This document shows positions 6,556-10,055 of a stretch of DNA of 64,000 bases, one piece after another. The DNA lies in the NCBI GenBank assembly GCA_026710825.1, contig JAPOQH010000089.1, forward strand, positions 62,001 through 126,000, in the 5' to 3' direction. Each line of letters opens with the position of its first letter. The stretch's first letter is position 1. Position numbers and translations under genes: made by a program. The notes below the pieces were generated by a model. The model was given only the letters and a program-made list of their open reading frames with translations. It was not told the DNA's origin and did no database searches. Source of the DNA: Chloroflexota bacterium. Its GTDB lineage: Bacteria > Chloroflexota > Dehalococcoidia > Lucifugimonadales > UBA3495.

Positions 6556-8394
6556 TTACTTTACACCGTAGATGGTCCCATCCTCAGTGCGCACTATCAA
6601 AAATTCGTTGCTCTGCACGGGTGGGATTTTGATGGCCGAACTGACCGTGATCTTCCAGTCCAATGACCCGTCATGCCGGTTCAAAGAGTAAAGGTTCCCG
6701 GACCCATCGCCAAATATCAACTTGTCTTTGACAACGATCGGTGAGGCGAAAATCGCGTTATCCGCATCGAACGTCCAACGCCGTGTGCCATCCAAAGCAT
6801 TCAGCGCGTACATGGTGTTGTCGTAGGCGCCCGCGTACAGCGTGCTGCCGTCTTCGTCCTCCACCAGGGCCGGTGAACTGTAGATTCCCTGGAGCGGGTT
6901 TTCGGGTGAAAAGCGCCACAGCCCTCCCTGTTGGCCGGGCGGACGCGGCACTCCCGGCACCTGCCACAGCCACATTTGGGCCCAGATCTTTTTGAATTGA
7001 TAGAGGCCCGGGACTTCGCGTTCCTCTCCGCTCACCGCATACAGTTGTCCGCTGGACGGGAAGTAGGCCCGTGTTCCGTCTGACGATATGACCGGTGGTC
7101 CAGCGATTGTTTTCAGAGTGCGGTAACGGAACCACTCCTGGCCAGTCCTTGCCGAAAGAATATAGAAGACACCCTTATCGTCGCCAACAAAGAGCTTTCC
7201 ATCATGTATGGCCACCTCCGCGCTGGCGTCGCTGTCCAGACGGGTCTGCCAGATCAAAGAGCCGTTGTATGCGTCCAACCCGTACAACCAGCCTTTTCCG
7301 GAACTGATATAAAGCAGGCCGTCGGAGATGACAGGAGACGCCTCTATCGTGTCTTCCGCAGGGAAACTCCACCACGCATCCCCAGTCAACGCGTCCCAGG
7401 CATTGACCGTATGATCGGTGCTCCCGAAGAACAGGTACGAATCGACCACTGCGGCTGCGCCGGTGACCCTGCCTGGGGTATTTCCATCCCATCCCTTCCG
7501 CTGCTGTCCGTCGTGCTGGGAGAGCGAGAATATTCCTTCGGCAGATCCCACGTAGATGTTTGAGTGTTGAGCCACCGGTTCGGAATTCAATGGTTGTGGT
7601 ACGAAACTGGTCCAGATCACCTCTCCGCTGGGAGGCGGAAAACCGATCTGCACATTTCGGCTGTTGCGTAAATCGCGCCCGCTGACGGTCCAAACCCCTG
7701 GGCTCGCATCCGCGGTCATCTGGGATTGGATATTCTTGAATATGATGAGAGGATTTGGCGCAAACGGGTAATTCACCCAGATGACGAAGATGACCAACAG
7801 CGCCGCGATGGATGCAATGATGATTCGTTTCCAGGACAAACGGTTGATGAACCAGTTCCGTCGTCGGTGCTGCGCCCAGGCCGGCAGGCGCACCACCACC
7901 AGGGAACAACGTTCGCAACGCGTTCCGATGCGTTGGTTGCGCGCGCCGCAATAGGGGCAATTCGACCCGAGTGGGTCCTCGATCAAGGCATCGTCGTCTG
8001 ACAAGCCGGTTTGGCCGACATCGATCGACGCCGCGCCAACGGGATCAGCAACCATGGTGCTTTGGGGATCAGCCATTGGGTTCGCGGGCGGTTCTGCGGT
8101 GAACGCCATTGGCGATGTTTCGGCCGTTCGCGTCAACGGCACCGTCGGGTCAGCATAGGCCTGCGACCCCTCGGCGGAATATCCGACGGCAGGTTCCGCG
8201 GTCGCCGGGGGATGATCGAAGACCGATCCTGCAGGCGGGCTTGCCTCTACGGAGGCAAGATCAACCGGTCCGTCCCGGGGGTCGTACGTGATCGGCCCAA
8301 GTTCCGCCTCAAGCCCCCGCTGACCGGGAGCCTCGGTTTCTTGTTCCCTCAATCGGCCAACAAGACGCCTGAGGATGTTGCCAAAGCCTGCCAT
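6556..8394 (-). CDS. Zinc-ribbon, single-membrane-span, PQQ-type beta-propeller protein
   Basis: A 612-aa protein with an unusual order of parts. A low-complexity acidic/Pro/Ala region (about 15-140) is followed by a CPYCG...CERCS zinc ribbon (Cys146/149/160/163). Then comes a basic stretch, one membrane helix (about 190-208), and a long region of PQQ-like propeller repeats (VVDSYLFFGSTDHTVNAWDA, LLYISSGKGWLYGLDAYNG and others). The topology implies a cytoplasmic zinc ribbon and an extracytoplasmic propeller. The repeats resemble BamB/PQQ-dehydrogenase blades, but no dehydrogenase active site is visible. A scaffold or surface-sensing role is possible; the function is unknown. It ends against the terminator shared with the importer operon. 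Confidence 0.85.
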   Translation of the reverse strand: MAGFGNILRRLVGRLREQETEAPGQRGLEAELGPITYDPRDGPVDLASVEASPPAGSVFDHPPATAEPAVGYSAEGSQAYADPTVPLTRTAETSPMAFTAEPPANPMADPQSTMVADPVGAASIDVGQTGLSDDDALIEDPLGSNCPYCGARNQRIGTRCERCSLVVVRLPAWAQHRRRNWFINRLSWKRIIIASIAALLVIFVIWVNYPFAPNPLIIFKNIQSQMTADASPGVWTVSGRDLRNSRNVQIGFPPPSGEVIWTSFVPQPLNSEPVAQHSNIYVGSAEGIFSLSQHDGQQRKGWDGNTPGRVTGAAAVVDSYLFFGSTDHTVNAWDALTGDAWWSFPAEDTIEASPVISDGLLYISSGKGWLYGLDAYNGSLIWQTRLDSDASAEVAIHDGKLFVGDDKGVFYILSARTGQEWFRYRTLKTIAGPPVISSDGTRAYFPSSGQLYAVSGEEREVPGLYQFKKIWAQMWLWQVPGVPRPPGQQGGLWRFSPENPLQGIYSSPALVEDEDGSTLYAGAYDNTMYALNALDGTRRWTFDADNAIFASPIVVKDKLIFGDGSGNLYSLNRHDGSLDWKITVSSAIKIPPVQSNEFLIVRTEDGTIYGVK

Positions 8395-8421: not shown

Positions 8422-8985
8422 TTAGTTGTTCGTCAACGTGCCGTTGATGAGCAAATTCCGCACCCCGGGCGTCAGCGAATGCGCGCGCTCCAGGAGGTCA
8501 TCGCCCTTCACATTCGTGATCGGATGAGGACACATCAGGTACGGGAAATTCGGCACACCCATCAACCGAGTGTAGGCCCGGGCCGTGTTGGCGAACACCG
8601 TCGTAATGATCGTCGCCGCGGGGATGCCCTGCCGCTCCAGGGTGATTCCGTCGTGCAAACTGCCCGACGAGCAGCCCCCTCAATCACCCACACCTGCGAT
8701 CACGAAGTCGGAGTTGCGGTGCAGGTCCGCCAGCACCTCGGGGAAAGGAGGCAGAGAGGCGCTATGCTTTTTGGCGTAAAAGATGTTGGCGAACTCAAAC
8801 TCCGCGTCCAACTCGCGGGCGATGGCCCACAGGATGGCATCGGAGTTCGCCTTGGAGTTGTCCAGCAAGCCCAGGCGCTTACCGCGCAGGTCAACAGGAC
8901 GTGCCGCCATCACCAGCGGAGTTTCCCCCGGGTCGAACCCGGTGGGATCAATCAATTGCACGGTTGGTCGGTTGGCGGTGGTCAT
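8422..8985 (-). CDS. UGSC-family selenoprotein, UGA (Sec) at residue 102
   Basis: Two open stretches are in the same frame, separated only by a TGA at 8682-8680. Read as selenocysteine, it gives one 187-aa protein whose centre reads VIAGVGD-U-G-G-C-SSGSLHDG (U102, C105). This matches the UGSC-containing (seleno)protein family, where position U may be Cys and the motif is normally U/C-G-S-C; here the third residue is Gly. Sequence on both sides of the UGA fits the family (LLDNSKANSD before, ITLERQGIPAATIITTVF after), so a degenerate pseudogene is unlikely. A SECIS-like hairpin follows the UGA. AAGGAG lies 6 nt before the chosen ATG; a GTG one codon earlier is also possible. The family's function is unknown; a redox role is likely from the U-x-x-C pair. 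It is 32 bp from the gene at 9018-10055, probably in the same transcript. Confidence 0.85.
8648..8670 (-). promoter_or_regulatory. Bacterial SECIS-like hairpin
   Basis: On the mRNA strand, 10 nt after the UGA, a 6-bp stem (UCGUCG with CGACGG), a G-A mismatch and a GC/GC pair close an AGUUU loop. The loop G lies 20 nt after the UGA, within the range expected for bacterial SECIS elements. The apex GC-AGUUU-GC resembles the GC-AGGUCU-GC apex of the E. coli fdhF element. Folding was done by eye. Confidence 0.65.
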
Positions 8986-9017
8986 CACTGTCTCCTTCGA
9001 CTGGTAAGCCAGTCGTG

Positions 9018-10055
9018 CTAAATCACCTCGGTAACGGCCGGCACTCCAAAATAGTTCATGATCAGCTCGCTGTAGATGCCGCTTTCGCCGCCGGCCTTCA
9101 CGATCAAAATATCGTCTGGACTATCTACAGTCAAAAGTCGTTCCGCGTCATCGCCGGGTCCCACCTCACCGTTCATCATCCCCAGCCGTTTCAACTCACC
9201 CACGGAACGCCACGATTTTTCGTAAAGGTATTCCTGCATGTCCCGGCGGGTCCAGCCCTGTCTCCCCAAAAGCTCCGAATGCCAGTGTCCGACGACCCAC
9301 ACCCACTTGATTCCACGCCCGAAGTATATGCCCAAACCGTGGGATGCCATACCGTCGGCTATGGAATCCAGAAGGCTCTCGCCGGTGGTTCCGTAGCGGT
9401 TGCCGTGCATCGACGGGTCCTGGATGGTCGCCACCGTGACGGTGGACTGGTCGGGTTCGAAACCCAGGCTCGTGTGGAACGGTTCCCAGGGACTGTTCTC
9501 CTCGTCTTCGCCGAACACCACTCCGTACTTGGTCAGGCTGCCCATGCACCCACGATCAAGAACCCCGGGCCGTTGCTCGAATACATTGATGAGAATCAAA
9601 CGCAGCGCCCGGCCTATGGTTACATTGGGGCGGTAGCCCGGGCTGAACAGGTTGTCGGTGCAGTTCAACTCGATCTCGCGCCGTATGGGTCCGTTGACGA
9701 TGGTCAACACTCCGGTGGAGTTCGTGACGGCGGATACCTCGTGGATGCAGTTGGGATCGAACTCGAAAAGGGCTTTCATCGTCGCCAGTACGACCGGGAA
9801 ATAACTGGGCAGGCATCCGGCCATAACCGCATTGGCCGCCGCCTGTTCCGCGGTGAGCGTCCTGCGGCGGACCTCAACCTCGCCCAGCACGGTTTCCGGA
9901 GCCAGTCCCACTGCGTCCAACATGGCCTGAACGCGTTCCGCAGTTGGTGGCACGACGGGCAAGCCGTCGGTCCAGCCGCGCCGGTAGCACTCCTCGATCG
10001 CGTCCAAGCTATCGGGGTACTCTACCACCGAGGCCCGTTGTACTTGTTCAACCAT
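9018..10055 (-). CDS. Conserved protein of unknown function, probable partner of the UGSC selenoprotein
   Basis: A 345-aa soluble protein with no signal or membrane segment that I can see. The ATG has a clear GGAG site 7 nt upstream. Conserved-looking blocks include RRGWTDGLPVVPPT near the N-terminus, NAVMAGCLPSYFPVV (Cys81), ELNCTDN and DRGCMGS, so several cysteines sit in well-ordered motifs. It is transcribed just ahead of the selenoprotein gene with a 32-bp gap. I do not recognise a named family with certainty. Linkage to a U-x-x-C protein suggests a shared redox or thiol-dependent step, but that is inference from position and cysteine content only. Confidence 0.75.
   Translation of the reverse strand: MVEQVQRASVVEYPDSLDAIEECYRRGWTDGLPVVPPTAERVQAMLDAVGLAPETVLGEVEVRRRTLTAEQAAANAVMAGCLPSYFPVVLATMKALFEFDPNCIHEVSAVTNSTGVLTIVNGPIRREIELNCTDNLFSPGYRPNVTIGRALRLILINVFEQRPGVLDRGCMGSLTKYGVVFGEDEENSPWEPFHTSLGFEPDQSTVTVATIQDPSMHGNRYGTTGESLLDSIADGMASHGLGIYFGRGIKWVWVVGHWHSELLGRQGWTRRDMQEYLYEKSWRSVGELKRLGMMNGEVGPGDDAERLLTVDSPDDILIVKAGGESGIYSELIMNYFGVPAVTEVI

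Follow-up and report, generated by a model that had tools for sequence, protein, structure and literature searches.

A UGSC-family selenoprotein gene of a Chloroflexota bacterium, its constant partner gene and a likely distant relation to GrdB and PrdB

Introduction

Is a gene that carries a single in-frame TGA a broken gene or the gene of a selenoprotein, and if it is the latter, what might its product do? This question is raised by a locus in a 64,000-nucleotide stretch of a Chloroflexota genome (the window, whose numbering is used throughout). An earlier note on this DNA had proposed a probable selenoprotein of the UGSC family with a variant U-G-G-C centre; the constant partner gene, the nine copies in the genome and the resemblance to GrdB/PrdB described below are absent from it. 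UGSC ranks among the commonest selenoprotein families of a marine metagenome survey, according to the available part of that report (PMC2398784), and the literature that we found gives no function for it.

Results

One reading frame with a TGA read as selenocysteine

The features of the locus are compiled in Table 1. A single minus-strand frame (8985..8422) is open save for the TGA at 8682..8680, and the plus strand of the same interval is an unrelated frame. The earlier note had described two open stretches of one frame with only a TGA between them, and its coordinates and residue numbers (U102 and C105) proved correct, with the strand left unmentioned. It had also expected automatic annotation to report two halves; indeed, an ordinary ORF list splits the gene into fragments of 102 and 78 residues. 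Both fragments match the same family model, PF24696, the half before the TGA with 72.1 bits (model positions 2-92 of 172) and the half after it with 79.6 bits (94-170 of 172), which goes beyond chance. Joined, the protein reaches 172.9 bits against PF24696 (cut-off 25) and 129.7 bits against NF041046 (cut-off 125), exceeding the curated cut-offs of both UGSC-family models. The family motif requires Sec or Cys in first place, which is the TGA at residue 102, and Cys in fourth, which is Cys105; the third residue is Gly in the window copy, and the Ser of the family name is absent.

Table 1. Features of the UGSC locus in the window
Feature	Position	Strand	Details
UGSC-family selenoprotein gene	8422..8985	minus	187 residues; ATG 8985, TAA 8424..8422
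TGA read as Sec102	8680..8682	minus	same TGA in orthologues L051-L056, L234, L236
Cys105 codon	8671..8673	minus	U102-G-G-C105 motif
SECIS-type hairpin	8649..8669	minus	loop GUU 8658..8660; stem of 3 pairs, G.A mismatch, 5 pairs
AAGGAG, likely ribosome binding site	8992..8997	minus	6 nt upstream of ATG 8985 (sequence)
Partner protein gene	9018..10055	minus	345 residues; 32 nt upstream of UGSC ATG

The TGA stands at the same position in six orthologues of the window gene (identity of 93, 84, 66, 72, 73, and 59% for L051 to L056, respectively), and also in copies from two genomes of the same genus, each a single contig (L234 and L236; U-G-G-C in both). A local sequencing error is very unlikely to lie behind a TGA that recurs at one position in all these sequences, those from single-contig genomes included.

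The source assembly (3.86 Mb in 137 contigs, 91.7% complete and 4.8% contaminated) contains all four parts of the selenocysteine machinery: SelA (451 bits), SelB (366 bits; cut-off 242), SelD (377 bits), which has an in-frame TGA of its own, and tRNA-Sec (66 bits; cut-off 47), with the anticodon TCA according to ARAGORN. The earlier note had suggested looking for selA, selB, selC, and selD, and its assignment to a probable UGSC selenoprotein is borne out by this complete apparatus together with both family models. On the same strand as the tRNA-Sec gene (L021:6980-7089, contig C39), and ending 12 nt before it, is a gene for thioredoxin.

A conserved hairpin downstream of the TGA

The loop of the predicted hairpin lies 19 nt from the TGA and is mostly GUN in relatives. 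The bSECIS model, as given in the available text of PMC13188914, has a loop of 3-9 nt with a G within the first two positions, an upper stem of 4-16 bp, a loop 16-37 nt after the UGA and a low free energy; the GUU loop and the spacing of the window hairpin conform to it, and its uninterrupted stem is short. Taken alone, the window hairpin folds unexceptionally in comparison with shuffles (z of -0.95 and -0.88), and support for the predicted element comes from the relatives, not from this copy.

We aligned the TGA and the next 33 nt of 80 relatives, the window and the eight other copies in the genome; one relative without the TGA was excluded, giving 88 sequences, of which 75 are distinct. Six stem pairs were formed in 435 of the 450 cells of the distinct sequences, and the five core pairs were all formed, uninterrupted, in 68 of 75. 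When synonymous codons were resampled (1000 runs), the mean paired fraction was 0.650 and the maximum 0.711; since resampled codons reach at most this value, protein coding does not explain the stem pairing. Sliding one side of the stem by 1-3 columns gave fractions of 0.11-0.66. Compensatory changes occur at pairs 18-28 and 20-26, the former being TA in 49 sequences, GT in 9, CG in 6, AT in 3, GC in 2, TG in 1, and a GA mismatch in 5, among them the window copy, and the outer pairs (15-31 and beyond) are not conserved. Besides, the residues at +6 and +9 after Sec covary (C/H 36, W/H 11, G/L 9, and R/R 6; more rarely G/H 5, S/L 3, A/A 2, and three others), G/H being the mismatched type, as in the window copy. 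This covariation apparently keeps the stem.

That the UGSC gene encodes a selenoprotein whose UGA is recoded under the direction of the hairpin just downstream is well supported by these data, and sequence alone could hardly make this reading firmer. It is highly improbable that the gene is broken, by a TGA that is either a genuine stop or an error. Such a reading has the stop codon itself to point to, as well as a window hairpin that folds little better than shuffles and contains one G.A mismatch, but it has to account for PF24696 matches on either side of the TGA that add up to the joined score, for stem pairing in relatives beyond the synonymous-codon expectation, for the complete Sec apparatus, and for the retention of the TGA in relatives, including those of the genus and phylum surveys described next.

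Copies, motif variants and spread of the family

Nine UGSC copies are present in the source genome, each with one in-frame TGA, seven having U-G-S-C and two U-G-G-C. All 14 genomes of the genus survey (source included; three single-contig) have 6-10 copies, and 111 of the 113 matches contain one TGA. Both exceptions come from one genome: the first is part of a split gene, and the second (L231; G308 contig C45) has lost about seven residues in frame, Sec among them, either naturally or through an assembly error. Across the phylum, 32 of 301 genomes (source included) encode UGSC, with one TGA in 74 of 77 matches; the other three are one piece of a split gene and two matches with T or M. We searched viral contigs as well, and none of the 6 pattern matches was a genuine relative.

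The earlier note had asked whether Cys or Sec aligns at residue 102 in relatives: Sec is found in 82 of the 83 UGSC matches near a partner gene (see below). In the four Sec-less exceptions that we inspected, the position is occupied by Q, M or T or is deleted (M, T and the deletion were placed by eye), and none has Cys. Cys forms exist elsewhere, because the marine GOS survey lists 21 Cys homologues beside 255 Sec forms in its available text (PMC2398784). The paralogues with Q, T or M in place of Sec (L104:3105-3635, L232, and L233) are UGSC-like and lie near a partner or are fused with one; they are perhaps noncatalytic.

The emphasis that had been placed on U-G-G-C holds in that the variant is real, but it is a minor one, found in 8 of the 75 distinct sequences; the third residue is Ser in 61 and Ala in 6. 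By this comparison, a third-residue Ser does not define the UGSC family, and the Gly and Ala forms are otherwise ordinary relatives.

A constant partner gene

The gene upstream of UGSC encodes a protein without any Pfam or NCBIfam match up to an E value of 10, for which AlphaFold2 gave a model with a mean pLDDT of 91.7. Its conserved residues include W28-x-D-G-L-P33, A79-G80-C81, G148-R149, E183, and W190, with Cys at position 81 in 81 of 84 sequences. The genome has nine homologues of this partner: one is fused to its UGSC copy, and the other eight are at most 1 kb away from theirs; in the pair on C87, a gene of endonuclease/phosphatase type lies between the two.

When the nine-member partner alignment was used to search bacterial and archaeal genomes, at least 582 relatives were obtained among at least 587 pattern matches, and the best 80 of these relatives were analyzed as loci. 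Their records are titled Chloroflexi, Burkholderiales, Rokubacteria, Binatia, Gammaproteobacteria, Acidimicrobiia, among other names. Of the 80 loci, 75 contain a UGSC gene, at a distance of up to 150 nt in 49, up to 1 kb in 23, up to 2.5 kb in 2, and 5.3 kb in 1; the partner comes first in 61, UGSC comes first in 13, and the genes are on opposite strands in 1. The partner lies near a contig edge in three of the five loci without UGSC, and the fetched stretches of L098 and L116 contain no UGSC even at a lax threshold. Because the partner had served to select the 80 loci, we also started from UGSC, with 29 loci of the phylum survey: 27 of them have the partner, in 8 cases fused with UGSC first. 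The fused proteins have the motif U-S-T-C in 7 of 8 cases.

The distances among the UGSC copies within the genome correlate weakly with those among their partners (r of 0.48, reached in 452 of 20000 permutations), and less so without the fusion (r of 0.26; 2818 of 20000 permutations); the r of 0.88 obtained for 67 single-pair loci is confounded by species relatedness. Taken together, the pairing of UGSC with the partner is well supported by gene neighborhood, and the sequence evidence supports a two-subunit unit that is present in nine divergent copies in this genome. The available text of PMC2398784 describes a fusion, UGSC/Unknown_1, of UGSC with a second domain of unknown function, and the window locus differs from it in having two separate adjacent genes. 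Unknown_1 is probably the partner described here.

Two other identities of the partner were considered and rejected. It is not a GrdE relative, since the profile comparison with 16 GrdE sequences (PF09338) gave a probability of 0.1%; PF09338 has no match in the source genome at E values up to 1e-5. Because the partner has no similarity to GrdE/PF09338, pyruvoyl-type activation is unsupported. Of two sequence searches of solved structures with the partner, one returned none; in the other, designed TIM barrels appeared from an E value of 0.003, and as no stretch passed alone, a TIM barrel was not accepted.

A likely distant relation to GrdB and PrdB

When the UGSC profile was compared with the C-terminal parts of seven GrdB read-through frames, hhalign gave a probability of 95.2% (E value of 2.5e-8) over 91 columns, with Sec aligned on Sec; a second setting gave 94.9% and a score of 56.5, whereas column shuffles (n = 100) scored at most 27 and reversed targets had a probability of 0.5% or less. 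Against 19 PrdB-like sequences, the unmasked probability was 64-84%, depending on the setting. Masking motif columns 100-108 lowered the probability to 59% with GrdB and to 44% with the PrdB-like set; the two sets combined gave 83%. The homology spans about 90 residues only (81-178).

The ranking was also reciprocal among 9564 read-through frames, which were labeled by locus and not individually, the 146 with an E value of <1e-6 being counted as UGSC. After these, the UGSC profile next finds 16 frames (E values of 1e-4 to 0.33), every one from a locus retrieved for GrdB/PrdB or for the adjacent GrdE; a frame of other origin first appears at an E value of 0.44. Conversely, UGSC frames rank right after its own in the combined GrdB/PrdB profile, from 1.5e-7 (first frame of neither kind, 0.62), and appear from 2.3e-5 with the GrdB profile alone (first frame of neither kind, 0.71). 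From the profile scores, the shuffles and the reciprocal ranking, it is likely that the C-terminal half of UGSC and the Sec-carrying end of GrdB/PrdB are distant homologues.

As in UGSC, a G comes after Sec in each of the seven GrdB frames, three of which read U-G-x-C and four U-G-x-G. The alignable region begins with the strand preceding Sec and includes the E..GIP stretch, and a second subunit gene adjoins GrdB in several genomes. The two differ in size, UGSC having 187 residues and five of the seven GrdB frames 442-486, and in the companion subunit, as GrdE is unrelated to the UGSC partner. UGSC is not listed against PF07355 at E values up to 10. In the GrdB frames (L160, L161, L163, and L166), matches to PF07355 stop about one residue before Sec, and the read-through region with the Sec motif falls outside the model, which may explain why the link to UGSC is not obvious. 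It was not found in the available portions of PMC2398784, PMC13188914, PMC9312934, PMC7539508, PMC5029168, and PMC7435645. Furthermore, we found no literature statement of the pairing, the copy number or the relation to GrdB/PrdB, of which an earlier description is possible, and no paper that combines SAR202 with selenoproteins.

The genome also has a PF07355 relative that carries an in-frame TGA with U-P-L-C (L180; G000:C9:13198-13611 and the following TGA), and with it probably a second family of selenoproteins, this one belonging to the GrdB/PrdB group.

Predicted fold

The AlphaFold2 model of UGSC, with Cys written for Sec, has a mean pLDDT of 89.0 and a pTM of 0.83. Strand and helix alternate five times, and Sec102 comes after the third strand, just before the next helix. 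A search of solved structures by sequence gave nothing convincing for UGSC.

UGSC has been called probably thioredoxin-like, as the available parts of two papers have it (PMC2398784 and PMC13188914), and this placement, together with the U-x-x-C motif, would suit a thioredoxin-like thiol-disulfide or peroxide oxidoreductase that acts on proteins or peroxides with U-x-x-C serving solely as a redox pair. We consider such an enzyme unlikely. The profile comparison of UGSC with 18 thioredoxins detected no relation (1.0%), the predicted order of strands and helices with Sec after the third strand speaks against it, and it would, we infer, be unusual for a general thiol reductant to occur as nine copies and to have a large dedicated partner for each.

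Discussion

Our main reading is that UGSC is the Sec subunit of a two-subunit enzyme that works with the partner in the manner of GrdB/PrdB, to which we assign a probability of roughly 0.55. Unlike Sec insertion and the pairing, the reaction and the substrate are inferred by analogy. In glycine and D-proline reductases, the selenolate is thought to attack the substrate, after which the Se-C bond is broken and a Se-S bond is formed, as described in the accessible text of PMC10298544. By the same scheme, the partner, perhaps together with the N-terminal half of UGSC, would bind a small organic substrate, and Sec102, placed where a helix begins after a strand, would attack a polarized carbon or heteroatom as the selenolate. 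Cys105 would then resolve the selenium adduct as a Se-S bond, and thioredoxin (of which a gene lies beside that of tRNA-Sec) or a similar dithiol would reset the enzyme. The bond cleaved could be C-N, C-S, C-O, C-halogen or another, and the nine copies might serve different substrates. Because the partner is unrelated to GrdE, substrate activation would have to differ from that in GrdB systems.

A comparable arrangement is farB/farE in monofluoroacetate reduction, in which a GrdB-like Sec protein and a second subunit are proposed to cleave a carbon-heteroatom bond, here C-F; the available text of PMC10838667 also mentions eight hypothetical grdB genes in one genome. The farB/farE products are GrdB/GrdE homologues of a rumen Synergistota, and that text draws no link to UGSC.

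It is also conceivable, if somewhat less probable than a thioredoxin-like oxidoreductase, that the role of Sec and Cys is to bind a metal or to carry sulfur or selenium, as in organometallic chemistry, and that Sec cleaves no bond of an organic substrate. The U-x-x-C geometry would permit this, and a Sec-assisted organometallic operon has been proposed elsewhere (PMC13188914, in the part available), whereas no metal transporter or sulfurtransferase occurs among the 25 commonest Pfam families of 116 neighboring ORFs, which is weak evidence against it.

Extending the main reading, we tentatively suggest that UGSC and the partner form a third branch of the GrdB/PrdB group, in which a small Sec subunit is combined with an unrelated substrate subunit, with 6-10 copies per genome in an apparently uncultured genus of Dehalococcoidia, each cutting a different carbon-heteroatom bond; this wider proposal is more doubtful than the reading on which it builds. 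An active-site half that resembles glycine and proline reductases suggests a type of chemistry for an uncharacterized family, and the link to the GrdB/PrdB Sec domain together with the constant partner turns UGSC into an enzyme pair that can be tested. That one genome encodes nine selenoproteins of a single family suggests a large unrecognized use of selenium in uncultured Chloroflexota. It is the pairing, the copy number and the relation to GrdB/PrdB that make the locus worthwhile, the U-G-G-C detail being minor.

The gene neighborhood was scanned in 116 of the 446 listed neighboring ORFs, which matched 164 Pfam families, the 25 commonest being viewed. Short-chain dehydrogenases (9) and amidohydrolases (6) were the most frequent; the neighbors are mixed and catabolic in flavor, and within this set they indicate no single pathway and no substrate. 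Several individual neighbors were recorded. NuoE- and NuoF-like genes lie up to 0.45 kb downstream of UGSC in three relatives from Dehalococcoidia/Chloroflexi (L057, L058, and L059) and are a possible electron supply. Downstream of UGSC in the window (6556-8394) is a gene for a PQQ-type beta-propeller protein with an N-terminal zinc-ribbon-like stretch, and a gene of this type likewise follows UGSC in L051 and L052. A gene of the FlK (fluoroacetyl-CoA thioesterase) family lies 20 nt after one UGSC copy (L022:5758-6156), and CoA transferase and enolase-superfamily genes are found within 4 kb of other UGSC copies in the genome.
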